Positions 1 through 48,871 of a stretch of DNA of 48,871 nucleotides are shown here, in pieces. Origin of the DNA: a virus; the IMG/VR virus record IMGVR_UViG_3300033388_007161, positions 1 to 48,871 of that record; one strand, given 5' to 3'. The first letter of the stretch is position 1. Each line of letters begins with the position of its first letter. A model generated the notes under the pieces. The model searched no databases, had not been told where the DNA came from, and was given only the letters and a program-made list of their open reading frames with translations. Made by a program: the position numbers and the translations under genes.

Positions 1-114
1 GTATCATATCGGAGAGGATTTTTAGCGTTAAATGAACTCACCGAATAAGTCACATTCCATTTCCTTCCAAAAAGTCGCCAACCAACTGGACGCTCCCGAT
101 ATTTTTTGTATTCC
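1..114. repeat. Left copy of exact 114-bp terminal direct repeat
   Basis: Bases 1-114 are identical to bases 48758-48871. The repeat lies inside a coding frame that continues without a stop from one end of the window to the other. It is therefore most simply the overlap left when a circular, or circularly permuted, phage genome was assembled linearly. The unique length is then 48757 bases. It is not obviously a packaging-end repeat, because it sits in mid-gene and far from the terminase genes. Confidence 0.95.
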
Positions 115-776
115 ATGTTTTCATAATTTGAATCATGGACAAGATAAACATCTGGAGTATAGGCCACCTTCCATTTCGAGTCATATTTTACTCTAAGAAA
201 AAAATCTGAATGTTCAAGAGCGGTTTTAAATTGCTCATCCCATTTCACCTTCTCCCAGACTACCCTTTGCATCATGAAGACATTTAAGATTAAGTCACAA
301 AGGAAATAATTTATTCCGTCAACCTGTCGCCATTTCGGATTTTCTATTTTCTCGATATAATGAGTATCTCCTTCAATCCAGGTATTCGCTTCATAATGTT
401 GTTCTTCGCCATCTGGGGTCATAAGAAGTCCGCCGACTATTCCGACATCCGGCTCGGCATCCAGGATTTTCCGCCACCGCTCAAGTTTGGTCTCTTTGGT
501 GAAGATAATATCATCCTCGCAAACAACGATATATTTATAATTTTTAGGAATTAGTTTTAGGCTTTCATTTCGAACGCCAGCAACTCCCAAATCAAAAGGA
601 AGCTCAAAAAGCACGCAGTTGTATTTCTCCGCGAATTTCGTCTTTTTCGCTGATGGCTTCCCATTGTCACCGATGAAAATTGGAATATCTTTGTAATATT
701 TCCGAATGGATTTTATACATCGAAAAAGCAATTCATCTCGAAGAAAAGTAGTAACAAGAATGGCCGTGTCTTTCAT
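1..776 (-). CDS. N-terminal part of 854-aa glycosyltransferase/LicD/cytidylyltransferase fusion (GT2 domain 1)
   Basis: This is the first 259 residues of a protein that continues at 48757 after circularisation. It starts at ATG 776, which overlaps the stop of the upstream small gene (ATGA). The domain is a GT-A, family 2-like glycosyltransferase: an N-terminal strand with TTFLRDE (residues 9-15), a nucleotide-sugar region with GDNG (36-39) and a metal-binding acidic motif CEDD (86-89). A conserved EHSDFF block (188-193) matches EHMDFF in the C-terminal domain of the same protein, so the two ends are paralogous. Family-2 enzymes transfer sugars from nucleotide-sugar donors in the cytoplasm. 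The acceptor is unknown. Being inside the virion assembly operon suggests a phage structural protein or a surface glycan as target. Confidence 0.85.
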   Translation of the reverse strand, partial: MKDTAILVTTFLRDELLFRCIKSIRKYYKDIPIFIGDNGKPSAKKTKFAEKYNCVLFELPFDLGVAGVRNESLKLIPKNYKYIVVCEDDIIFTKETKLERWRKILDAEPDVGIVGGLLMTPDGEEQHYEANTWIEGDTHYIEKIENPKWRQVDGINYFLCDLILNVFMMQRVVWEKVKWDEQFKTALEHSDFFLRVKYDSKWKVAYTPDVYLVHDSNYENMEYKKYRERPVGWRLFGRKWNVTYSVSSFNAKNPLRYD

Positions 777-1003
777 TCGTTCCATCGCAAAATAATATGC
801 CAGCTCCCCTTGACACATCCCTTCTCGAAATGGTCAAGATGAGCCTTTGGATAAAATATCGCCCTGGTAAGATTTACAATATGGCTTCCGTCATCTGGCG
901 TTAGTTCGTAATTATCCTCAAGAGCAAAGACTGCTACCTGCCCGCATTTGGGACAATCACGCCATTGAAAACGCCCTTGTTTGTCAGTCCAATATTCTTT
1001 CAT
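773..1003 (-). CDS. Small zinc-ribbon-like protein, unknown function
   Basis: This is a 76-residue protein with CPKCG at residues 17-21 and a further cysteine near residue 63, suggesting incomplete or shared metal binding. Its TGA overlaps the ATG of the large glycosyltransferase fusion, so the two are probably translationally coupled. No strong ribosome-binding site precedes ATG 1003. The family is not recognised. Its place between two glycosyltransferase genes makes an accessory role in that module possible, but nothing in the sequence shows this. Confidence 0.65.
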   Translation of the reverse strand: MKEYWTDKQGRFQWRDCPKCGQVAVFALEDNYELTPDDGSHIVNLTRAIFYPKAHLDHFEKGCVKGSWHIILRWNE

Positions 1004-1279: not shown

Positions 1280-2005
1280 TCAGTCCGCTGACAAAATCTC
1301 TTTAACCAGCGGTTGGTCAAAAAGGATCTTCTTCCGCCTTTCGAATTCCGCTCTGGTGAGATTGTCCACTTTTTCTTTCTTCCACATCCGAGCGGAATAC
1401 CAGTTGTGGTAGAGTGTGGGCCTTCCCATGATATAGTAATTATCTCCCCATACATCACCATAAAACTTTTTGCCATCAGGTTCGTAGCCAGATGGAATCC
1501 GAAGCACTTCATAACCTGCAACTAGAAGGTCAAAATAAATTTTCCTGCCCACATCAAATCCTTCTCTAGGAATAAATGATAATCCCATATCTAGGAAAAA
1601 CTCCCGCTCGAAAAACATAAAACAAGGATGAATTGGTTTTCTGTTATCCCCGCCAGCACAAATAAGTTTTCTCTCTTTCTTGGCGATATAAAGCTCGATT
1701 AGGTTAAAATCCCATTCTTTTCTCTGGATATGAGCATCTATATCCAAAACTAAACAAAATCGCCTTTCAGCCTGTTGGAGAGCAAAATCAAGCCCGAGTC
1801 CATGTCCAAGATTTTTATTTAAAATAAAAGCTCGAATATCTTTTAAGTCTTTCTGCTCTTTCAAAATCCATTCCACTGAGCCATCTTCACTACCGTTGTC
1901 AACCAAAACAATTTCATAGGGCAAATGAGTAAATTTCCTCACCGAAGCGACCAGGAGCTTCATAAAATCAAGACAATTGCGGTTGACCGTTAATATTGAA
2001 ATCAT
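1280..2005 (-). CDS. Family 2 glycosyltransferase
   Basis: This 241-residue protein has a GT-A fold start (MISILTVNRN), a VDNGSEDGS nucleotide-binding loop at about 35-43, and a DIDAH metal-binding motif near 88-92. Such enzymes transfer a sugar from a nucleotide-sugar donor to an acceptor. Its ATG overlaps the stop of the gp10-like connector gene (ATGA), so it is translated as part of the virion assembly operon. It is shorter than and distinct from the two GT domains of the adjacent 854-residue protein. Together they form a phage glycan-modification module. Donor and acceptor cannot be told from sequence. Confidence 0.85.
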   Translation of the reverse strand: MISILTVNRNCLDFMKLLVASVRKFTHLPYEIVLVDNGSEDGSVEWILKEQKDLKDIRAFILNKNLGHGLGLDFALQQAERRFCLVLDIDAHIQRKEWDFNLIELYIAKKERKLICAGGDNRKPIHPCFMFFEREFFLDMGLSFIPREGFDVGRKIYFDLLVAGYEVLRIPSGYEPDGKKFYGDVWGDNYYIMGRPTLYHNWYSARMWKKEKVDNLTRAEFERRKKILFDQPLVKEILSAD

Positions 2006-2433
2006 TTCCTCATTATCTCTTTTAATTTCTTTTCCACATCGCCCTCATGAGAAAAAAATGAAGGAAAAAGAAAAGGGCGAGCTCTCATCTTTCTTGTTCC
2101 TAGTTCTTGAAACGGAGCATAAAAAACATTCGTGCCAACTGCTACTTCGAATTTACCTAATTTCGAATCTGGACGGCCTATTCCATCATCTCTTTTTGCG
2201 GGAGATTCAACCGCTCCTTTGTGAGGCCCTCTACTCCAATTTACCGATATAGAGCTGATCAACCGCCCTGTATCAAAAACGCCTTTTTCTCTAGCAGTCA
2301 ACTTTGCATCCCGTTGAATTTTAAAGCCTATTTCCTTCAACACCTTCTTTGATTCTTCTTCTTTCTCTTTTCCCCATTGCTTCAGCTTTTTTTGAACCTG
2401 AGCCACGCCATCAATTTTTATTTTGACTGACAT
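2002..2433 (-). CDS. HK97 gp10-like neck/tail connector protein
   Basis: This 143-residue protein matches the HK97 gp10 family: an N-terminal VKIKIDGVAQVQKKLKQ helix, a central FDTGRLISSI segment, then VGTNVFYAPFQELGTRKM and a proline-rich RPFLFPSF before a C-terminal helix. Family members sit at the head-tail interface in siphoviruses. The gene follows the head-closure gene by one base and overlaps the glycosyltransferase start by ATGA. Family membership is confident. Its exact place in this virion is inferred from gene order. Confidence 0.88.
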   Translation of the reverse strand: MSVKIKIDGVAQVQKKLKQWGKEKEEESKKVLKEIGFKIQRDAKLTAREKGVFDTGRLISSISVNWSRGPHKGAVESPAKRDDGIGRPDSKLGKFEVAVGTNVFYAPFQELGTRKMRARPFLFPSFFSHEGDVEKKLKEIMRK

Positions 2434-5427: not shown

Positions 5428-6468
5428 TTATGAAGAAGTCGTCAAGCAAACAAACGGTGAAAGTGAGCTTCCTCCTCGTCTCGGAGTGATGGTGGCCTGC
5501 GGAACAGGTTGTCCATCTACCCGAAGAACGATTTTCCAGAATGTTTCATTCTGAAGGAAGCCATAATTTCCACCATAATTCACATGTTTTGACGACGCCA
5601 CAATTATTTCCCTGTCGAATATGACGTATTGTCCGAAATCAGCCAGAATAATGTCTCCCGTTGTTCCCATTGCGGAGCATTTCTCAGTGACGATGATTGG
5701 GCGACCGAAAATCTGCATCTTCGCCAAGTCAATGACTGAAGCAGAATTGGCGGCATTGGCCGTCAGCTCCACCAACTCAGTCAGGACGCTTTGGTTTATG
5801 AGCCAGACCGCAGTCTGCCAGCTTCCCGGGAGCAATCGAGAAGCCATGTTTCCAATATCTGCTACATCGATTTTTGAATTGGCGGTTCTGGTTACCGGAA
5901 CGAGACAATTGGCATGCATAACCCCAACTGGCTGACCCGATCCGGTTCCCCAGATAAAAGCCTCATCTTCATAGAACCGGATAGCCCGGCCAAAAGCCTG
6001 GAGAAAGAACTGCTCGAATTTGTCAACATCTGCTTCAAGATTATTGGAAACAAAAGTTCCGACTACTCCTTCATGAGCCGTGAGTTTCAAATTTCCCAAC
6101 GAAGGCTGAGAAGTAACCGTTGCTTTATCTCCAGCTTCTTCTAACCACTCAATTGTAATTCCTCCAAAAAGGGAAGAACTTCTATCAGAATCAACAAGAA
6201 CACGGATATTCAATGTGTCAGTATTTCCAGAAATCCGAATAGCTCGGCTCCGCACAATGGAGTTTTCCAGAGCGACAGAAAGAATCTGGTCCGCCCATTT
6301 TTCAGGAACGAGGACACCGCCCGCAGAGTCGGTGCCCTCATTCATTGTTTTTCGGAACAATTCGTCTATTCGACTATCCCGTGCCTCCCCATCCAAATAT
6401 TTTCGGGTGGCGATAAGGAACTCACCTAGACTGCGAAACCCACCCGTGCGTTTTTCTTCACTCATCAT
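5428..6468 (-). CDS. Second HK97-fold major capsid protein paralogue
   Basis: This 346-residue protein is clearly homologous along its length to the 407-residue capsid protein immediately upstream. Shared landmarks are NEGTDSAGG versus TEGTDSAGG, SLFGG versus SVFGG, NLKLTAHE versus NCKLTAHQ, and near the end VLRVDGQP...ITPR and LSPFV. Its N-terminal arm is short (about 40 residues), without the charged extension of its neighbour. It begins 9 bases after the first capsid gene with GAGGTGAT before ATGATG. The two may co-assemble, or this one may form pentamers, as vertex proteins do in some phages. Confidence 0.9.
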   Translation of the reverse strand: MMSEEKRTGGFRSLGEFLIATRKYLDGEARDSRIDELFRKTMNEGTDSAGGVLVPEKWADQILSVALENSIVRSRAIRISGNTDTLNIRVLVDSDRSSSLFGGITIEWLEEAGDKATVTSQPSLGNLKLTAHEGVVGTFVSNNLEADVDKFEQFFLQAFGRAIRFYEDEAFIWGTGSGQPVGVMHANCLVPVTRTANSKIDVADIGNMASRLLPGSWQTAVWLINQSVLTELVELTANAANSASVIDLAKMQIFGRPIIVTEKCSAMGTTGDIILADFGQYVIFDREIIVASSKHVNYGGNYGFLQNETFWKIVLRVDGQPVPQATITPRRGGSSLSPFVCLTTSS

Positions 6469-6477
6469 ATCACCTCA

Positions 6478-7701
6478 TTAGCTGGTGCTGGAAAGAATAA
6501 CGAAGGGAGACAGGGTGTTAGAGCCATTCCTCGGAGTGATGGCGCTCTTAAGCCAGGGCTGACCATCGACTCGGAGAACAAACCGCCATGCAGTGCAGTT
6601 GGTAGTAAAGTAAACGTGAGTTGAAGCATCAATGGTCAAAGGTTGGCGGTCACCGATGAGGTAGAAGCCGAAATCAAATACGCCGATGTCACCTTCAGAA
6701 CCAAGAGCACTCATCTTCTCAGTTACAAAGAATGGCCGACCAAAAATGGTGCCAGGAATGGATTGAGCGGCTCCTTGGTCACGGTTGATCCATACGAGGT
6801 TGTGACCGCTGGCCTGGGCAGCATTACCAGCACCCATCTTCATCAGCTCAGGAAGAACCTCATGATTGAGTAGCCAGACTGCCCGCTTCCTGGAAGCGGG
6901 AAGTAATCGGCTCCAGAGGTTTACCAGGTCATTGTAACGAACAATGTTATTGGCCTGGCGAGTTACAGGGATGGTGCAGGATGCATTTAAAACACCTAAA
7001 GGTTCACCTTTTCCGCTTCCACTGATAAAGGCGATATCCTCGTAGTAAGCCCATGCCTCACCGAAAGCTCGACGGAGAAAAGCCTCAAGTCCAACAGCGG
7101 CATCGGCCAGCAAAGCGTTAGAAGCCTTGGTGTAGCCAGCCAACTGGTGGGCAGTGAGCTTGCAATTTCCCCACTTGGGCTCAGAAGCAGTCATGGTGCT
7201 GGTTTCACCTTCCCAGTAGCCAACTACACCACCGAAGACACTTGAAGCATGAGAGGTGTCTTCAACCCGAGGGATATTGATGGTATCAGAGCTCATCGGG
7301 ATGACCATAGCACCATTTTTGCGGACGATAGCATCCTCGAGCCCAATTTCAAGAATTTGGTTTCTATATTCTTCAAAAACCAGGAACCCACCAGCACTAT
7401 CAGTGCCTTCGGTCATAGTTTTTGATTCAGGCGGAGAAGCTATCTTCCCTGAAGAATCAACATAGACCAGCCGTTCATCATGCTGGCCGCCCTGCCGATA
7501 ATTGTAGACTGCAGTCAAGAATTCTCCGAAGCTCTTGAATTTCTTCTCTTTGGCTGCTTTATTGACTTCCTCTTCCTCTTTGCTGGGTTTAAATTTCCCG
7601 AGTGCATCCTGGATTTGTTCTTTCAGCTGGGCAGTAATATATTCATCGGCAGTCTCTTTGACTCTATCTTCAATGTATTTTTCAAGTTCTTCTTTAGTCA
7701 T
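6478..7701 (-). CDS. HK97-fold major capsid protein (first copy)
   Basis: This is a 407-residue phage capsid family protein. Residues 1-75 form a charged, helical N-terminal extension like an HK97 delta domain, probably removed or used as internal scaffold. The capsid core starts near TEGTDSAGGFLV (about 97) and includes SSVFGG, LTAHQLAGYTKAS, a GSGKGEPLGVLN loop and the C-terminal RVDGQP and ITPRNG. AGGAG precedes ATG 7701. The gene follows a long folded leader. Many copies form the icosahedral shell. It is the larger of two tandem paralogues. Confidence 0.93.
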   Translation of the reverse strand: MTKEELEKYIEDRVKETADEYITAQLKEQIQDALGKFKPSKEEEEVNKAAKEKKFKSFGEFLTAVYNYRQGGQHDERLVYVDSSGKIASPPESKTMTEGTDSAGGFLVFEEYRNQILEIGLEDAIVRKNGAMVIPMSSDTINIPRVEDTSHASSVFGGVVGYWEGETSTMTASEPKWGNCKLTAHQLAGYTKASNALLADAAVGLEAFLRRAFGEAWAYYEDIAFISGSGKGEPLGVLNASCTIPVTRQANNIVRYNDLVNLWSRLLPASRKRAVWLLNHEVLPELMKMGAGNAAQASGHNLVWINRDQGAAQSIPGTIFGRPFFVTEKMSALGSEGDIGVFDFGFYLIGDRQPLTIDASTHVYFTTNCTAWRFVLRVDGQPWLKSAITPRNGSNTLSPFVILSSTS

Positions 7702-7992
7702 TTTTCTTTTCTCCTGAAATAGGATTTTCTTTTCTCCGTGGTGGTGTATTTCAGCTTTGGGTGGCCTTGCCTCCTGGTGACCATCTTTGCGATGGTGGGT
7801 CTATATCTCCAGCTCAGACCAATTCACTCCGGCTGATTGCTCTATAGAACAATCTCCACCGGATTGGCCTTGAACCTGATATTCTCCGCTTGGAGAGCAA
7901 CTCCCCCTTTTGCTGATACCAACGGAGATAAATTCTTGTGTTAACCTATGTTAACTGACAGAAGGCCGGTTAACATAAATTAGCACAAGAAG
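7702..7992 (-). ncRNA. Structured 5' leader of the capsid genes
   Basis: This 291-base gene-free stretch folds, on the minus strand, into a row of hairpins. (1) TTCTTGTG 7933-7940 with 7984-7991, enclosing TATGTTAAC 7947-7955 with 7969-7977. (2) TCTCC 7883-7887 with 7892-7896. (3) A nested arm, CCAAT 7819-7823/7863-7867, CCGG 7829-7832/7859-7862 and GATTGCTC 7835-7842/7847-7854. (4) GGTCT 7798-7802 with 7816-7820. (5) ACCATC 7780-7785 with 7791-7796. (6) CTGAAATA 7714-7721 with 7747-7754. Arms 3 and 4 share two bases, so they are partly exclusive. Hairpin 6 overlaps the AGGAG site (7711-7715) of the capsid gene and could gate its translation. No known riboswitch was recognised. Confidence 0.6.
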
Positions 7993-7996
7993 GCAA

Positions 7997-8248
7997 TTAA
8001 AGAATCTGACTTATTTCTTCAATTAATTCACAAAATTTCTTAAATGAACTTGGCTCTTTAATTACTCCCTTTTTAATCAGCCTCTTTAGAATTTGATGGG
8101 CCTTTTCAGTTTTATTTCCTTCATCTAAGGGATAATATCGCCACTTTATCTGGGGATAATGTATTGGAATGAGATGCCAAGGAGATATCCCAGGACCCAC
8201 AGAGGTAGAATCGTTAAGCTCATTTGGATTACCAGTATTAGCTTTCAT
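7997..8248 (-). CDS. 83-aa protein between tRNA and capsid leader, unknown
   Basis: This is an 83-residue protein with a polar N terminus, a tryptophan/proline-rich middle (PWHLIPIHYPQIKWRYYP) and a helical C terminus (HQILKRLIKKG, FKKFCELIEEI). GGAAGG precedes ATG 8248. It lies between the tRNA and the capsid leader, where some phages carry small head genes. No family is recognised. Confidence 0.6.
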   Translation of the reverse strand: MKANTGNPNELNDSTSVGPGISPWHLIPIHYPQIKWRYYPLDEGNKTEKAHQILKRLIKKGVIKEPSSFKKFCELIEEISQIL

Positions 8249-14386: not shown

Positions 14387-15643
14387 CTAATTTTCCCATA
14401 TTTCTTCCAGTGAAACAGGAGAATATTTATAGGGAAGTTCAAGTTTAATTTTTAAAAAATTCCCTTTTGCCAATGACATCAACCCCATTTTTTCTACTTC
14501 TTCCCAGAATTCTTCCGTTGTTTTGAACCTCCTTTTTCTCAAGGCCAACACCTTTTCAATTTGATTTTCATCTGACCGTTCGCAAATCGCATCCTTTAAG
14601 GCATTGAAAATTCTAAGGGAATCAGAATGAAATACTACAACCCGACCATTTTTCAGTTTCCATTTATATCTCACTGTATCCAGGTCAACTTCCTTTAGTT
14701 TTGTCAAATCAATTTGTTCCAGCGGTGTATTCAGTTGCGGTGAAAGATAATTCACTATAAACCCCAACCGTGGTCGGAATTCATATATTTCATCGTTTAA
14801 TACTTTTTCTCCAAATTCTTCGAATTCTTCATAGGAATTTAGTCCTGCTATCAAAAAAATATTTGCTCTTTTTCGGCATTTCTTTGTCTGAATAACAAAT
14901 TCTCTTATCTCCTCATCTGTCATCGGTTTTGCCAATTTGTTCCTCAATTTTTCCGAGACAAACTCTACCCCCACTCGTATGTAGCGGATCTTTTCAAATT
15001 TCCTTGGATTTTTCAGGAAATCCCTCAGCAGGGCATTTGTTGTTGTTCTTTTTGTACAAGAGTCGGAAAAATCATTTGTTATCAGATAAAGTTGTTTTGA
15101 TTTTCCAATTGCTTTTCGTATTCTTTCGGGTATCCGTTTCTGTGGATTTATCTGGTATTTGTTAATCCAGGACGTGAGGCAAAACTTACATTTGTATCTA
15201 CAGCCAACGCTCCACCAGTATGAATATGAGTTTTTTTGAATTTGAACAGCCGGGACTATTTTCCAATCTATGTATTGAGAAAATTTCCCATTTTTCTTCT
15301 GGGAATGGATTATATATTCCTTTTCCCAAATATCATCTATACTCCTGCATTCTTTGAAAAACTGAAATCCATGACCAAGATTCACAAAATCAGCCCATCG
15401 TAGCAGGGGAAGCGGGGAGTGTGAAAGATGCCCTCCAACTACAATTTTTTTGGAGGGAAATGTTTCCCTTGTTTTTTTTAGTCCCTTCAACTCCCCCCAA
15501 TGAGTAAGACTTACTCCGATTAGTTCACTTTCTTCTGGACTTGTCAATTCATGCCCATAAAAACTCACCAATTTTTCCAGCAATTTTGTAATATATAAAC
15601 TCTCCCCTTTTCTCTGACCAGGGACTAATATACTAATTTTCAT
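14387..15643 (-). CDS. Radical SAM enzyme with B12-binding-like N-terminal domain
   Basis: This 418-residue protein has a C-R-Y-K-C-K-F-C iron-sulfur motif (C148, C152, C155) that defines radical SAM enzymes. Residues 1-100 look like a Rossmann, cobalamin-binding-type domain (ELIGVSLTHWGELKG, KKIVVGGHLSHS), as in B12-dependent radical SAM methylases, although no clear DxHxxG cobalamin ligand is visible. The TIM-barrel continues to about 300, then a helical tail. It overlaps the ParB-like gene start-to-stop (ATGA-type) and precedes terS. The substrate is unknown: DNA modification is one possibility, protein or small-molecule chemistry another. Confidence 0.85.
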   Translation of the reverse strand: MKISILVPGQRKGESLYITKLLEKLVSFYGHELTSPEESELIGVSLTHWGELKGLKKTRETFPSKKIVVGGHLSHSPLPLLRWADFVNLGHGFQFFKECRSIDDIWEKEYIIHSQKKNGKFSQYIDWKIVPAVQIQKNSYSYWWSVGCRYKCKFCLTSWINKYQINPQKRIPERIRKAIGKSKQLYLITNDFSDSCTKRTTTNALLRDFLKNPRKFEKIRYIRVGVEFVSEKLRNKLAKPMTDEEIREFVIQTKKCRKRANIFLIAGLNSYEEFEEFGEKVLNDEIYEFRPRLGFIVNYLSPQLNTPLEQIDLTKLKEVDLDTVRYKWKLKNGRVVVFHSDSLRIFNALKDAICERSDENQIEKVLALRKRRFKTTEEFWEEVEKMGLMSLAKGNFLKIKLELPYKYSPVSLEEIWEN

Positions 15644-26731: not shown

Positions 26732-27142
26732 CTAAATTTCATATTTCCCCTCAATGGGATAAAATTTTCTTTTCCTGATTCTCCCCACCTCTTCAGTAAT
26801 TTGTCGAATAGGAAAGTATCGCTTTACAACTACTTCCTGGCCTATCTTCTGGAATATAAACACTTCATCGTTGGGCGCCCAGGGTATAGCTTTTAATTTC
26901 TCTATCTTCCGTCCAACCCCCGAATCAAGAGTTGCCTGTATCCAGAGTGTCCGATAATCTTTTTTAGCTATCAGGTCAATACAATTAAAGATATCCGTCT
27001 TCCGACTAACCCAGATCGCCCTTTTTTTTGTATAAACTGGTTTCGCTGACGGTGTCTCATTATGGACAACCCACCCCCGTTCTTCCAACCATTTCTGAAT
27101 CCAACGCTGGAAGCTCAAACCTTTACCACGCTTTGTGCTCAT
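26732..27142 (-). CDS. PD-(D/E)xK nuclease-like protein, possible Holliday junction resolvase
   Basis: This 136-residue protein starts GKGLSFQRWIQKWLEERGW (an N-terminal alpha helix typical of resolvase-like nucleases), then KTDIFNCIDLIAKKDYRTLWIQAT, fitting the D...(E/Q)xK/T core of the restriction-endonuclease fold. Position among replication genes supports branched-DNA cleavage. The metal-binding residues are atypical (WIQAT), so activity needs testing. Confidence 0.6.
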   Translation of the reverse strand: MSTKRGKGLSFQRWIQKWLEERGWVVHNETPSAKPVYTKKRAIWVSRKTDIFNCIDLIAKKDYRTLWIQATLDSGVGRKIEKLKAIPWAPNDEVFIFQKIGQEVVVKRYFPIRQITEEVGRIRKRKFYPIEGKYEI

Positions 27143-27687
27143 TTAGGCCTCTCCCGGCTATTCATAATTGCGTCTACCAGACCATAATCAACCGCTTCTT
27201 TTGCAGTCATATATCTTAAATACGTTAGGTCTTTCCTAATTTGGTTCAGCTTTTGTCCTGTTGTTTTTACTAATAAAGTTTCCACCTTCTGTTGTAGGCG
27301 CTTAATCTCTTTCGCTTCAATTTCAATTTCTGATGCACTTCCAAAACTAAACGACCATACCTGATGAATCATCACTCTTGAGTTTGGGGTTATAAATCTC
27401 TTCCCCTTTGTTCCAGTCGCTAAGACCATTGCCGCTCCAGACATCGCCTTTCCTATACAGATAGTCTGGACATCACAACTTATAAGATTCATAACATCTA
27501 TAATACTGAAGGTTGAATCCACATATCCCCCATAAGAATCAATATAAAAATAGATGTCTTGAATTGGGCTTTCCCACTCCAAAAGCAAAAGTTTTTCGTT
27601 TATCTCTTTTGCTTTTTTCTCGTCAATTCTTCCGTTGAGAAAAATAATCCGACTCTCTTTTAATTTTCTTTCTTCTTTTTCGCTCAT
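27139..27687 (-). CDS. clpP-like: ClpP-like serine protease
   Basis: This 182-residue protein is similar to ClpP throughout: FYIDSYGGYVDS, CIGKAMSGAAMVLA with nucleophile S83, RVMIHQ with H108, and AKEAVDYGLVDAI. The catalytic aspartate position of Escherichia coli ClpP (D171) aligns with L157 here, while D153 aligns with D167. It may use another acid or be altered. Phage ClpP-like proteins can act in head maturation or host protein turnover. GGAGG precedes ATG 27687. Confidence 0.85.
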   Translation of the reverse strand: MSEKEERKLKESRIIFLNGRIDEKKAKEINEKLLLLEWESPIQDIYFYIDSYGGYVDSTFSIIDVMNLISCDVQTICIGKAMSGAAMVLATGTKGKRFITPNSRVMIHQVWSFSFGSASEIEIEAKEIKRLQQKVETLLVKTTGQKLNQIRKDLTYLRYMTAKEAVDYGLVDAIMNSRERPK

Positions 27688-35415: not shown

Positions 35416-35451
35416 ATCCCCGGGGTCTTTTGATTCCCGGGGATTTTTTTT
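35416..35451 (+). terminator. Rho-independent terminator of rightward operon
   Basis: ATCCCCGGG (35416-35424) pairs perfectly with CCCGGGGAT (35436-35444) around an 11-base loop, followed by a run of T to 35451. The minus strand side is followed by A, so it works only rightward. Confidence 0.92.
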
Positions 35452-36715
35452 ATCCCTCCATTATTTTCTCAACCGCCATTTTGATGGCTTTAAGCTCGGG
35501 TAATTTATTCAATTTATAATCAACTCCAAATTTTCGAGCTTCTTCTCGAGTAATTCCTTCAATAGCACAATGTTTCCAGAAACTCATATTAGGGACATCG
35601 GTTTTCCTTGCCCATGCACCGGCGGACATAATAATCCAGCCACCACCGCCAGCCACATAGTCAGTTATAAGTCCACTCATCATATCCCAGCTAGCTGGCC
35701 TTGAAAAATTGGGATTCCAGGAATATCCGCGCAGGCCCCGGCCGATTAGCCTTTCATCCCAGGTTGAGGCCCCATCTGAATCAGAGATGATCCGCCGTCC
35801 ATAAGGTCCGTAAAAATATTTTTGAAACTCACATCCTTTTTGGTGAAAACGAGTAAATGCCCAGACGGTATTTACCGCATGTCGAGAATACAAAACTTTT
35901 TTCCATCGCTTCAGCCATTTTAACACAATAGAGCTATCAATATGTTCAATCATAATCCGTTTTTGAGGAAGCCGCAGGTCTTTGGTCATAAAATTAATAA
36001 TATCAATTAGCCAGCTATCTAGAATATTGGGATTTACCCCTTGCGGCTCATTAATAACTTCCCAGATAACACGGGGATTATCGAATTCTTTCACTATGGC
36101 TCGGACGTAGTCTTTGAAAATCGTCCGAACAGTTTGACTTGTAAAAAATCGTCTGTAATCATCCGATAAATTCAAATAATTTCGACTCCACATCGTCCAT
36201 TTGTAGCGAGGACTTTTGATTCCAGAGGCCAGGCAAATTATCGTCTTGATATCTCTCTTGTGAAAACAATCGAGGCGGTGGTGCATTTCATCTTTATATT
36301 CTTCATTCAGCTCAAGAATCCCCTGGCTGTTATATTTGAAAATAAATTTTCCCTTGTGTTTGGGTAGAGGGTGAAAAAGGGATACAAAACAGTTTTTGTC
36401 TTCCAAGCAATACGCAAAAAGGCGAATAGCGTTGATGCCGTGCTTTGCCAGAAGTTCAGCCGCATTATCAAAATTTTTGAAATTCCAGCTCGAGCCATCT
36501 TTGAAGGGAATTACAAAACCATGTAAATCCCAGGGCACATACCCAACCATGAAATCTTTGTAAGGGAAAATCGTCTTGGTATATTTCTTTTTTGGTTTTG
36601 GCTTTGGTTTGGGTTTTTCTTCTTTATATGAATCTGTAGAATATTTCTTTTTTAATAATATTTTCCAGATTTGTATAATTTTGTCGAAGATAAATTTTAA
36701 GATTTTTCTAATCAT
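35450..36715 (-). CDS. GH5-like glycoside hydrolase fold protein with membrane-like N terminus
   Basis: This 421-residue protein has a hydrophobic, basic N-terminal helix (about 1-25), a lysine-proline linker (KPKPKPK), and a (beta/alpha)8 domain with DNPRVIWEVINEPQG, the family-5 acid/base signature (E in NEP), about residue 220. At the place where the second catalytic glutamate would be expected lies SDSDGAS, so activity is uncertain. It is last in the tail operon. It may degrade host polysaccharide as part of the tail tip or act at lysis. Confidence 0.72.
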   Translation of the reverse strand: MIRKILKFIFDKIIQIWKILLKKKYSTDSYKEEKPKPKPKPKKKYTKTIFPYKDFMVGYVPWDLHGFVIPFKDGSSWNFKNFDNAAELLAKHGINAIRLFAYCLEDKNCFVSLFHPLPKHKGKFIFKYNSQGILELNEEYKDEMHHRLDCFHKRDIKTIICLASGIKSPRYKWTMWSRNYLNLSDDYRRFFTSQTVRTIFKDYVRAIVKEFDNPRVIWEVINEPQGVNPNILDSWLIDIINFMTKDLRLPQKRIMIEHIDSSIVLKWLKRWKKVLYSRHAVNTVWAFTRFHQKGCEFQKYFYGPYGRRIISDSDGASTWDERLIGRGLRGYSWNPNFSRPASWDMMSGLITDYVAGGGGWIIMSAGAWARKTDVPNMSFWKHCAIEGITREEARKFGVDYKLNKLPELKAIKMAVEKIMEG

Positions 36716-46113: not shown

Positions 46114-46509
46114 TTAGCTTGAAGATGCGGTGATGCCTCCGGTGATTTGAATCGAGGCAGTGGCTGTGAGAGCATCCTCGTAAGGGCCAGTGAAGACAAG
46201 AGAGGTAAGGATGCCTTCACCTGTATAAGTATTTCCGTCAGGCATGGTCACAACACAGGTGAGTGTAGATGGAGAACCTTCTGTGAAATGAGCTTGAAGA
46301 ACTTTCTTTGCCACATCATCATAGATATAGAGAGCATCTACATCAATGGTCACATCTCTACGACCGGCAAGATATTCTCCGTTCCGACCTGAATCTGCAG
46401 AAGTAGCATCTATTGTTGCCTGACTGAAAGAAATAGTCACTGTTCTTGCCGCCGCAAGAACATCTCCCTCAACAGAGAGAGTCATATTTTCACCGCTTAC
46501 AGCTGCCAT
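46114..46509 (-). CDS. Major tail tube protein
   Basis: This 131-residue protein is a TP901-1-like tail tube: NMTLSVEGDVLAAARTVTIS, TIDATSADSGRNGEYLAGRR, then VTMPDGNTYTGEGILTSLVF and TATASIQITGGI. Many rings stack to make the tube. It has GGAGG before ATG 46509. Lies between tail terminator and chaperones, the usual order. Confidence 0.88.
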   Translation of the reverse strand: MAAVSGENMTLSVEGDVLAAARTVTISFSQATIDATSADSGRNGEYLAGRRDVTIDVDALYIYDDVAKKVLQAHFTEGSPSTLTCVVTMPDGNTYTGEGILTSLVFTGPYEDALTATASIQITGGITASSS

Positions 46510-46541: not shown

Positions 46542-46958
46542 TTACACCATGTGGATTCTAAACCGGACAATACCATGGCGTATCGGATTGGCCGGTTCTG
46601 TATCGTCTATTGTTATATCGGCATAATCAAAAAGACAGATTAGCTCTGTGTATGAGTCAAAACTAAGGTTGGATGAAGTTATCGCCTGAACGATATTGTC
46701 AATCATATCTGAGGCTTCTTTATCCCCTTTGTAGTCGCTCCAGACATGAATAATCAAAACGTTTTCCTCAGCTGGAATATCCTGGGCAGAGAAAGAATCT
46801 GAGCGAGCACCAATTGGAGTTCCCAGGGTAATATACGGAAAAGAAGCATCTCTTGGTGCGTAATTGTATATGCTGTAATTTTTTGTCAGACTATGGGTAG
46901 TAAGACGATTGTAAACCGCCTTCATCAATTCAGTAAATCCAACTTTTCTTGTCACCAT
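46542..46958 (-). CDS. Tail completion/terminator protein (gp17-like)
   Basis: This 138-residue protein matches the gp17-like (DUF3168) family: an N-terminal FTELMKAVYNRLTTH, SFPYITLGTPIGARS, a NVLIIHVWSDYKGDKEA and a DYADITIDDTEP. It caps the tail tube and joins it to the connector. It follows the end of the large glycosyltransferase fusion by ten bases. Confidence 0.85.
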   Translation of the reverse strand: MVTRKVGFTELMKAVYNRLTTHSLTKNYSIYNYAPRDASFPYITLGTPIGARSDSFSAQDIPAEENVLIIHVWSDYKGDKEASDMIDNIVQAITSSNLSFDSYTELICLFDYADITIDDTEPANPIRHGIVRFRIHMV

Positions 46959-46968
46959 TTTTTATCAC

Positions 46969-48871
46969 CTAGAATCTATTTACCACACTTGTAAAATCCC
47001 ATTTCTCCAAAAAATACGAGGGAACAGCGGATCGCCGATATTGTAGATATTCAACATCTAGCTTGCTTTGCATATGGATAGCCTCAGCATCAAGACAAAC
47101 CGCCGCTTTCCAGTCAGCCTTTTTGAGTGTCAAAAAGAAATCCATATGTTCATATTCGACCTTGATTCTATTGTCCCATTTTACATCATCAAAAACTTTC
47201 CGCCGAGCCAAAAAGAAATTTGGGACCTGGTCGGCATAGCGAAACAAAACCCCGTCGGCCTCGTGAATTTCCCCGGGAGAAGGATACCGAAAAAGAATTT
47301 TGTTTTGAGGCTTAAATACAAGACCCTTTACATATTTTTCACTTACATAAAAATCTCCTGAAATCTCGTTTTTTAAAATCCCTGAAACCAGTCCTATCTC
47401 ATCATCGCTTTCCAGGACCTTTTTCATTTTTTCAACAACTGTTCCATCTTTGATGAGAATATCATCGTCCAAAATAAGGATATAATCTTCAGTTACCCGG
47501 CTGACTATTGCATTCCGCCCGACAGATATTCCGGAGTTGAAAGGAAGCCTCAAAATAACATGGCCTTCTCTTTCCAGCCTCTGATATAGATATTCTTTCC
47601 GATGCGATATCCGACCATCATCAGCGATATAAAATTTATAGGGAAGCGAAAAATTTTCCTGTATTCCTTCGATACAGCGGAAAAATGTATCTTCCCTGAG
47701 AAAAGTCTTTATCCCAATAGCAACAATCTCATCTCCAGAAGCTTGTTTCTTTTTTCTTTTTCCAGTTTCTTTTACTCGGATTCTTTCATCTCTTTTTATC
47801 TTTTCTTTTATAAGGCTCGAGCTGATTCCTTCTGTATATGGAAGAAATACCGCCTTCCCACCAAAAAGCCTGACAAAGTCTTCTCCTGGAACATAATCCC
47901 AGTCGTTTCCATGAACAATGTAATCAGGATGAATGCTAAGTCGCTGAAAATCCCGAGCCGGGTTTTTGTCGTTTTGAGTAATTACTTCATCAACAATCTT
48001 CAGGGATTCAATGATTCGTTTTCTCTGCTCAAATGGAATAACCGGCGCTTCTTTGTATTTTTTTGCTGCTCGGTCAGTCAAGACCCCAACAATAAGATAT
48101 CCCCCCAATTCTTTTGCTCGCTCCAGGATGTTTAAATGCCCGATGTGAAACAAATCCCAGACACCGCCAATAAAAACAGTTTTCTTCTTCTTGAAAAAAG
48201 CCTTGTCTATTGCCTGACAATCAATCCAGTATTTGTAATCTTTATCCGGGACTCTCCAATTTTTGCCATACCGACACTCAAGATATTTCTCGGGAGGATT
48301 CGGAACAAAGCATCTCATTCCCCGAAAAAGAACTTCTTCTAGCTCCTCAAAAAGCTCAGCTGGAAAAACATAGGGAAGAAACTGGTCATATTTCCCGGAT
48401 GAGCCGGGCCCGAAAGCTCCATGCCACCAGACATCGCCTTTCTTGAAAAAGAAAAACAAATCAACCTTGATTCCCTTCCATCGAAAACTTAACTCGATTT
48501 TTTTTCTTCCCCATCGCCACTCTTTATAAAGCTCAAATCCAGCCTCCAAAAATCGCTTCTTCAACTTATCCCAGTGTCTCAGATTTCCTGGTGCTATACC
48601 GATGTCTATGTCCGGGTCATGGCTGATGAAATCTTTTTCCCGGATCGCCCCAAGACACGTTCCAGCCTCAAGCCACCATTTGATTTTTTCATCATCCAGA
48701 ATCCTGATGGCTTTTTCCAGTGCTTCATCCTTTTCGTCAAAATCAAATTTTCCCATCGTATCATATCGGAGAGGATTTTTAGCGTTAAATGAACTCACCG
48801 AATAAGTCACATTCCATTTCCTTCCAAAAAGTCGCCAACCAACTGGACGCTCCCGATATTTTTTGTATTCC
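46969..48871 (-). CDS. C-terminal 595 residues of the same fusion: LicD-like, cytidylyltransferase and GT2 domain 2
   Basis: The frame is open through the window end and joins 1-776, giving 854 residues in all (46969-48757 plus 1-776). Residues about 275-430 resemble LicD phosphotransferases, which move phosphocholine-like groups from CDP donors to glycans: GTCLGAIR near 291 and the acidic DPDIDI at 306-311, ending in a YGKNW motif. Residues about 450-590 are a TagD/RfaE-type cytidylyltransferase with HIGH at 463-466 and a late EGISSS motif. Residues about 613-854 are a second family-2 glycosyltransferase with DDD at 699-701. A basic KRKKK linker precedes it. It ends just before the tail terminator gene. 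The substrates are unknown. Making a CDP donor, transferring its phospho-group and adding sugars in one polypeptide is an inference from the domain order. Confidence 0.85.
   Translation of the reverse strand, partial: EYKKYRERPVGWRLFGRKWNVTYSVSSFNAKNPLRYDTMGKFDFDEKDEALEKAIRILDDEKIKWWLEAGTCLGAIREKDFISHDPDIDIGIAPGNLRHWDKLKKRFLEAGFELYKEWRWGRKKIELSFRWKGIKVDLFFFFKKGDVWWHGAFGPGSSGKYDQFLPYVFPAELFEELEEVLFRGMRCFVPNPPEKYLECRYGKNWRVPDKDYKYWIDCQAIDKAFFKKKKTVFIGGVWDLFHIGHLNILERAKELGGYLIVGVLTDRAAKKYKEAPVIPFEQRKRIIESLKIVDEVITQNDKNPARDFQRLSIHPDYIVHGNDWDYVPGEDFVRLFGGKAVFLPYTEGISSSLIKEKIKRDERIRVKETGKRKKKQASGDEIVAIGIKTFLREDTFFRCIEGIQENFSLPYKFYIADDGRISHRKEYLYQRLEREGHVILRLPFNSGISVGRNAIVSRVTEDYILILDDDILIKDGTVVEKMKKVLESDDEIGLVSGILKNEISGDFYVSEKYVKGLVFKPQNKILFRYPSPGEIHEADGVLFRYADQVPNFFLARRKVFDDVKWDNRIKVEYEHMDFFLTLKKADWKAAVCLDAEAIHMQSKLDVEYLQYRRSAVPSYFLEKWDFTSVVNRF
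48758..48871. repeat. Right copy of exact 114-bp terminal direct repeat
   Basis: This is identical base for base to 1-114. Removing one copy and joining 48757 to 1 restores one uninterrupted minus-strand reading frame, with a codon ACG spanning the join. That supports true circular closure rather than a chance duplication. Confidence 0.95.

Follow-up and report, generated by a model that had tools for sequence, protein, structure and literature searches.

What would a tailed phage do with a single polypeptide that joins two glycosyltransferase (GT) domains to a LicD-like phosphotransferase and a cytidylyltransferase (CT), and that is encoded between its neck and tail genes? The locus lies at the two ends of an IMG/VR virus record, analyzed here over its entire length of 48,871 bases (the window), and the initial question is whether the gene is real. 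The first 114 bases of the window (1-114) are exactly identical to the last (48758-48871), and when 48757 is joined to 1 a single minus-strand frame results, 868 codons long when read from the ATG at 818 and 854 when read from the ATG at 776. We prefer the 854-residue start because this ATG overlaps the TGA of an upstream 76-aa ORF (ATGA), an overlap also kept in contig L026, and because the proteins of relatives begin at the same place. The stretch 46969-48871 holds only the C-terminal part of the protein, the N-terminal GT being found at 48-776. An assembly chimera at the join is ruled out by L005, a contig from another IMG/VR metagenome record that is 100% identical over 6175 bases spanning the join, and by the 78% relative L004 and many other relatives in which the whole protein occupies one contiguous frame without any join. 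The join is thus real, or at least reproduced, and the repeat, the identical contig, and the contiguous relatives together bear out the 854-residue fusion that the first-pass annotation had reconstructed across a circular junction. In the window the neck gene is followed by a small GT2, the 76-aa ORF, the fusion, and then the genes for the tail terminator, the major tail protein, a tail protein, and the tape measure; the features around the fusion are as follows.

48758..48871, no strand: second copy of the terminal direct repeat, identical to 1-114, a duplicated assembly end and not extra sequence.
2002..2433, minus strand: neck/tail-completion protein, HK97 gp10-like (phrog_5, 8.8e-24; PF04883).
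1280..2005, minus strand: small stand-alone GT2 upstream of the fusion (PF00535, 1.9e-14); most relatives also carry a related gene in this direction.
773..1003, minus strand: 76-aa ORF whose stop overlaps the start of the fusion (ATGA), with related ORFs in L004 and L026 and, weakly, in L007.
46542..46958, minus strand: tail terminator, immediately following the fusion (phrog_176, 3.2e-20).
46114..46509, minus strand: major tail (tube) protein, a candidate acceptor (phrog_1407, 3.9e-20; PF06199).

The 854-residue protein contains, in order, a GT2 domain (GT_N), a LicD domain, a PF01467 cytidylyltransferase, and a second GT2 domain (GT_C). All four lie above their curated Pfam cut-offs, with PF04991 giving 45.7 bits on the LicD domain (cut-off 22.6), PF01467 giving 72.2 bits on the CT (cut-off 21), and PF00535 giving 34.4 bits on GT_N and 48.2 bits on GT_C (cut-off 23.3), which confirms the domain order first proposed.

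48..776, minus strand: GT_N, residues 1-243 (PF00535, 2.5e-8; Foldseek match B4GALNT1), with start ATG at 776-774, EDD motif at 501-521, and EHSDFF at 198-215.
48214..48757 plus window 1-2 across the join, minus strand: LicD domain, residues 259-440 (PF04991, 1.1e-11; alignment to FKRP, 6kaj), with AGTCLG at 48646-48666, DPDIDIG at 48598-48618, and KVDL at 48451-48468.
47788..48189, minus strand: CT, residues 449-582 (PF01467, 6.1e-20; best solved match Fom1, 5x3d), with HIGH at 48136-48147, VHGNDW at 47899-47916, and YTEGISSS at 47815-47838.
46969..47733, minus strand: GT_C, residues 601-854 plus stop (PF00535, 1.5e-12), a paralogue of GT_N, with DDD motif at 47452-47472 and EHMDFF at 47134-47151.

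The acidic metal-site motifs of the two GTs, EDD in GT_N and DDD in GT_C, are invariant among full-length relatives. In the LicD domain, DPDID and KVD line up with FKRP residues D360, D362, D364, and D416 (D416 assigned by alignment), which are essential in FKRP, their loss abolishing activity (PMC6965139), and these catalytic aspartates are invariant across relatives of the fusion. The CT passes the tests of the PF01467 family in its profile score, in its HxGH and T.GIS(S/T)(S/T) motifs, and in its fold. With one clade's CT as the exception, the catalytic motifs are invariant or nearly so in full-length relatives, and all four known active sites are, as read from these motifs, intact in the window's fusion. 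The AlphaFold2 model of the window's own LicD-CT region has a pLDDT of 91.8 and a pTM of 0.85 (LicD pLDDT 92), and Foldseek matches it to Fom1 (9.9e-12), TagD (1.6e-10), and FKRP (5.2e-9); both the LicD and the cytidylyltransferase fold are therefore present, where a model with neither had been named beforehand as the outcome that would count against the assignment. Among PDB structures, the GT domains match B4GALNT1, the LicD domain matches FKRP, and the CT matches Fom1, ethanolamine-phosphate cytidylyltransferase, TagD, and HldC. Selection has acted on every domain, with dN/dS values against L004 of 0.041 for GT_N, 0.036 for LicD, 0.050 for CT, and 0.061 for GT_C, which with dS near saturation are to be read as strong constraint and not as precise values; because purifying selection reaches every domain, the fusion is far beyond chance.

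The two terminal GT domains had been taken as the products of a duplication, and their mutual match of ~107 bits agrees with this, standing far above the match to any other GT in the phage loci (at most 37 bits) or in the cellular loci examined (at most 27 bits). A pair of GT2 domains in one chain raises the alternative that the GTs act as an alternating polymerase in the style of E. coli K4 chondroitin polymerase (K4CP), with the LicD-CT part adding phosphodiester substituents or links, so that the product is a polymer. The two GT active sites are distinct and conserved, and Foldseek of the full-length L004 model returns K4CP and other double-GT polymerases as well as FKRP, B4GALNT1, and Fom1. 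That model has good domains (pLDDT 82), with a pTM of 0.40 that gives no reliable domain arrangement, and the K4CP-type alignments have an rmsd >20 at about 10% identity and therefore establish nothing beyond two consecutive GT-A folds. Export machinery was not seen, and K4CP, with its tandem GT2 domains, and B4GALNT1, with its GT2 fold, contain neither LicD nor cytidylyltransferase. We consider a polymer product quite improbable.

The closest comparators for the central part of the protein are FKRP and fukutin, which, like the fusion, have the LicD NTase fold, four essential aspartates, and a GT-A-like domain N-terminal to LicD. The GT-A-like part of FKRP is an inactive stem resembling ppGalNAcT-10 (PMC6965139), whereas the phage GT keeps its motifs, has the donor enzyme fused in cis, and is accompanied by a second GT after the LicD-CT part; FKRP depends instead on a separate enzyme, ISPD, which is an unrelated nucleotidyltransferase. 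Bacterial ISPD-LicD fusions (PMC4873967) resemble the phage protein in placing a cytidylyltransferase and LicD on one chain, but their nucleotidyltransferase is of the IspD type and no flanking GT2 pair is described for them in that paper. The same logic of cytidylyl activation followed by LicD-type transfer is found in the PntC and LicC-LicD pathways, in which AEP or choline phosphate is placed on bacterial surface glycans (PMC6697681), though PntC and LicC belong to PF12804 and are encoded by separate cellular genes, while the phage CT belongs to PF01467 and is part of a single chain. The reading of LicD and CT as a donor-making and donor-using pair is supported.

The CT had been described as TagD/RfaE-type; its PF01467 membership holds, but it misses the equivalog cut-offs for TagD (TIGR01518, 72.1 versus 165.4 bits) and for RfaE domain II/HldC (TIGR02199, 93.5 versus 181.5 bits). 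Its closest solved relative is Fom1 (39% over 129 columns; Foldseek TMt 0.85 against 5x3d). In a maximum-likelihood tree with support read from unrooted splits (SH-aLRT/UFBoot), the phage CTs form one group (94.3/95), nine PEP-mutase-fused/Fom1 enzymes form another (99.9/100), and the two are sisters at 92/88, a moderate value from a limited and pattern-biased sample. Fom1 and the PEP-mutase-fused domains also share the VHG.DW motif with the phage CT, its VHG element being found in all 12 phage and all nine fused sequences, in the ethanolamine-phosphate enzyme, and in one of the 30 other cellular rows; the Fom1-type CTs are fused to PEP mutase, and the phage CT is fused to LicD and GT domains. 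In simple pairwise scores, certain non-fused cellular CTs come as near to the phage CT as the fused ones do, or nearer. A PhnW/BhcA-type aminotransferase gene precedes the CTs closest by score in six cellular loci, and since these CTs are preceded by an aminotransferase and not by a heptose kinase, a heptose pathway was rejected. The genome of one such locus also encodes a CT-PEP-mutase fusion, its CT 47% identical, that carries EDKxxxxxNS, the PEP-mutase-specific motif (PMC6697681), and seven further CT-PEP-mutase fusions (L134-L140) come from Bacteroidota and Pseudomonadota. About 24% of PEP mutases are reported to carry a fused PF01467 domain, and phosphonate clusters to have LicD-like transferases nearby (PMC6697681); CT and LicD are adjacent separate genes in Solimonas and in a Saccharibacteria genome. 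The EDK...S motif is absent from the examined flanks of 80 cellular CT loci, bar one spurious 15-residue match. The replacement of R by Y in the RTEGIS motif of TagD was considered as a phosphonate marker and dropped, as it is common to most cellular CTs.

By sequence, then, the CT makes a poor TagD or RfaE and groups, with moderate support, with phosphonate-activating Fom1-type enzymes, which suggests that the donor may be a CMP-phosphonate or CDP-ethanolamine; because of this grouping, choline phosphate and glycerol phosphate are not our leading guesses. The most likely CT substrate would be a two-carbon compound, either 2-hydroxyethyl- or 2-aminoethylphosphonate or ethanolamine phosphate, giving a cytidylyl-activated donor. 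The competing proposal, which concerns the donor only and is compatible with a role on the virion, is that the CT makes a CDP-polyol or CDP-choline from glycerol, ribitol, or choline phosphate. FKRP and Mf1, both relatives of LicD, take CDP-ribitol and CDP-choline as donors, an NCBIfam search returns TagD and Mf1 matches, TagD is close in fold, and the dehydrogenase fusions of some cellular CTs would fit CDP-polyol synthesis; set against this are the missed TagD and RfaE cut-offs and the placement of the phage CTs with the PEP-mutase-fused CTs. We regard such a donor as a realistic prospect that falls somewhat short of an even chance. PEP mutase (PF13714) was found in none of 12 viral records, the window's and 11 related ones, and a phosphonate would therefore need to be supplied by the host. 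A bolder version of the two-carbon proposal, which we hold to be doubtful, is that these phages carry a self-contained phosphonyl-tailoring enzyme that would attach a CTP-activated phosphonate, C-P linked, to a glycan borne by the phage's own tail or head; if true, the particle would acquire a hydrolysis-resistant, diversifying coat.

The position of the gene bears on the acceptor. Sequence beyond the fusion is available in 35 contigs, and in 34 of them the tail terminator is the first recognized gene to follow, usually overlapping the fusion or adjoining it; in the remaining one, L023, a separate LicD gene lies between the two. Upstream, the interval from neck to fusion is a variable cluster of GT2s, DegT aminotransferase, GNAT, methyltransferase, rhamnosyltransferase-like, and sulfotransferase-like genes, so that a GT gene sits among virion assembly genes in the order neck, cluster, fusion, tail terminator, and major tail. 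This agrees with the first-pass placement in a head-tail operon beside another GT, as neck and tail genes flank the fusion and the small GT2 lies upstream. The fusion has no membrane-like segment (maximum 1.32 on the Kyte-Doolittle 19-residue scale, KD19), the cluster proteins have no clear one either, although two reach 1.6-1.7 against controls of 2.0 and 2.7, and no flippase, polymerase, or ligase genes were recognized in the annotated clusters.

These observations are best accommodated by a soluble enzyme with four active sites that makes a phospho- or phosphono-substituted glycan, most likely on a virion protein of the same late operon, a proposal that we judge modestly probable. The chemistry is well supported: the analysis shows the joined gene, the identities of its domains, their catalytic residues and folds, and the selection, synteny, and conservation of the gene, whereas we infer the nucleotide, the donor, the order of steps, and the acceptor. 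The CT would join CTP and a small phosphate or phosphonate into a CMP or CDP conjugate, and the LicD domain would move the phospho or phosphono group from this donor onto a glycan hydroxyl, as FKRP does with ribitol phosphate, with GT_N and GT_C adding sugars before and after the LicD step. Assembly would be cytosolic, the acceptor would most likely be a virion protein (tail tube, neck, or capsid), and the variable upstream cluster would make the details of the glycan differ between phages. A virion acceptor is favored because of the fixed position among assembly genes and because no export gene was recognized in the annotated clusters.

The first-pass annotation had left virion glycosylation and host surface change side by side, and the synteny, the lack of membrane segments, and the lack of recognized flippase-type genes favor the former, with the latter as its main rival. 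In that rival the same chemistry would act on a glycan of the host envelope, and this late surface change would block superinfection or re-adsorption to debris. LicD and GT genes of other phages have been so interpreted (PMC8008677), enzymes of the B4GALNT1, chondroitin polymerase, and LicD types work on surface glycans elsewhere, and late-operon synteny would also fit a late-expressed modifier of the host surface. The absence of a membrane segment in the fusion and the lack of recognized flippase, polymerase, or ligase genes in the annotated clusters argue against it, as does the retention of the gene at precisely the same position among the neck and tail genes of phages that have diverged widely, and we think it unlikely. 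Virion glycosylation by phage-encoded GTs has a precedent in actinobacteriophages, among them Che8 (Freeman 2023, as cited in PMC11256854), whose likeness to the fusion would be that phage GTs act on virion proteins. We know of no LicD/cytidylyltransferase arm reported for these glycosylated phages.

The nearest GT relative (23-29%) from cultured Salinibacter ruber phages is encoded between the genes for the major capsid protein and the neck. In Salinibacter phage 10_1 (L126) an unannotated GT-like gene at 6986-8104 occupies this position and is matched in >180 cultured phage records, offering a tractable system for the study of virion glycosylation.

The fusion had been noted without knowledge of relatives, and a search of viral databases shows that it is not a singleton: two scans of IMG/VR yielded 36 distinct related contigs, of which 19 (several of them near duplicates) carry the complete four-domain architecture in one open frame, making it a conserved, syntenic gene of an uncultured tailed phage group. 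The remaining variation is largely in the middle of the protein. Seven contigs (L016-L021 and L044) have both GTs without LicD-CT, and a tree rooted on the paralogues places LicD-less members as a sister group in GT_N (support 0.91-0.92). In L013, L014, L015, L037, and L038 the CT lacks the HxGH and GIS motifs, making these natural pseudo-cytidylyltransferases with LicD and its aspartates intact; the GT_C domains of the three such members tested form one clade (support 0.99), and no PF01467 gene besides the fusion was found in the contigs of this type searched, which are fragments. Donor synthesis is therefore not always needed, and this clade may capture its donor from the host, whereas LicD-less members may make a plain glycan. 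About 250 more N-terminal residues, likely an extra GT, are present in L024/L036 and L027. In L023 (5989-8432) two GTs in one ORF are followed by a separate overlapping LicD ORF without a cytidylyltransferase, an arrangement that could be real or a frameshift.

The contigs without LicD-CT and the clade that lost its CT motifs might suggest that LicD-CT no longer works as a donor system and serves mainly as a scaffold for the two GTs. The catalytic motifs are, however, invariant in the window and most relatives, with dN/dS about 0.04-0.05, and the LicD aspartates are kept even where the CT is dead, so we hold a mere scaffold to be very improbable indeed. The natural series of GT-GT only, LicD with a dead CT, and full enzyme makes the proposed coupling directly testable.

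Each domain family is known, and LicD-IspD fusions (PMC4873967) and viral LicD-GT proteins are partial precedents. Giant-virus proteins such as those of Indivirus place LicD and GT on one chain, and Flandersviridae encode LicD and IspD as separate genes in a replication module (PMC8008677), in both cases without the four-domain order. That order was not found in reference phages, BFVD structure matches, genome scans, or the literature searched, in keeping with the initial statement that no described protein is known to have it. No reference phage record covers 80% of the fusion's 633-aa part, and LicD matches there are to two Vibrio phages only. In cells, a full-length profile scan of 84,980 species genomes gave no whole architecture among pattern-selected candidates, and a LicD-CT scan gave CT relatives and adjacent LicD and CT genes and no LicD-CT fusion; both scans need short conserved peptides and can therefore miss distant cases. 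A single chain that combines donor synthesis with the transfer of a phospho-group and two sugar additions, and that is encoded at a fixed position between neck and tail genes of divergent phages, thus appears not to have been described in the searched collections and literature. If the proposed role is true, phage virion glycosylation would be chemically richer than plain sugars, the fusion would offer biochemistry a natural LicD-cytidylyltransferase pair relevant to FKRP-type enzymes, and it possibly links phages to phosphonate chemistry.

Several further features were observed in the cellular loci and in the window. In L046, L050, L051, L053, L054, and L063, from several phyla, a class-V aminotransferase (PhnW/BhcA-like) gene directly precedes that of the PF01467 cytidylyltransferase with no PEP-mutase motif nearby, and in L050 a CDP-glycerol glycerophosphotransferase-like gene follows; these pairs possibly represent an undescribed surface-decoration pathway. 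Naming a host for the window from its terminase (<30%) or capsid (best match a Streptomyces phage, 42%) was set aside, as the matches are insufficient. A radical-SAM-like protein (14387-15643; weak Pfam match, below cut-off) is encoded directly upstream of the terminase genes, a protein with the look, by eye, of a ClpP-type protease (27139-27687) is encoded away from the structural genes, and a GH5 cellulase-like protein (35450-36715; PF00150, 5e-7) near the tail genes is perhaps a virion glycan hydrolase. Finally, adjacent HK97-type major capsid genes at 5428-6468 and 6478-7701, paired in L026 too, possibly reflect a two-capsid particle or a duplication.
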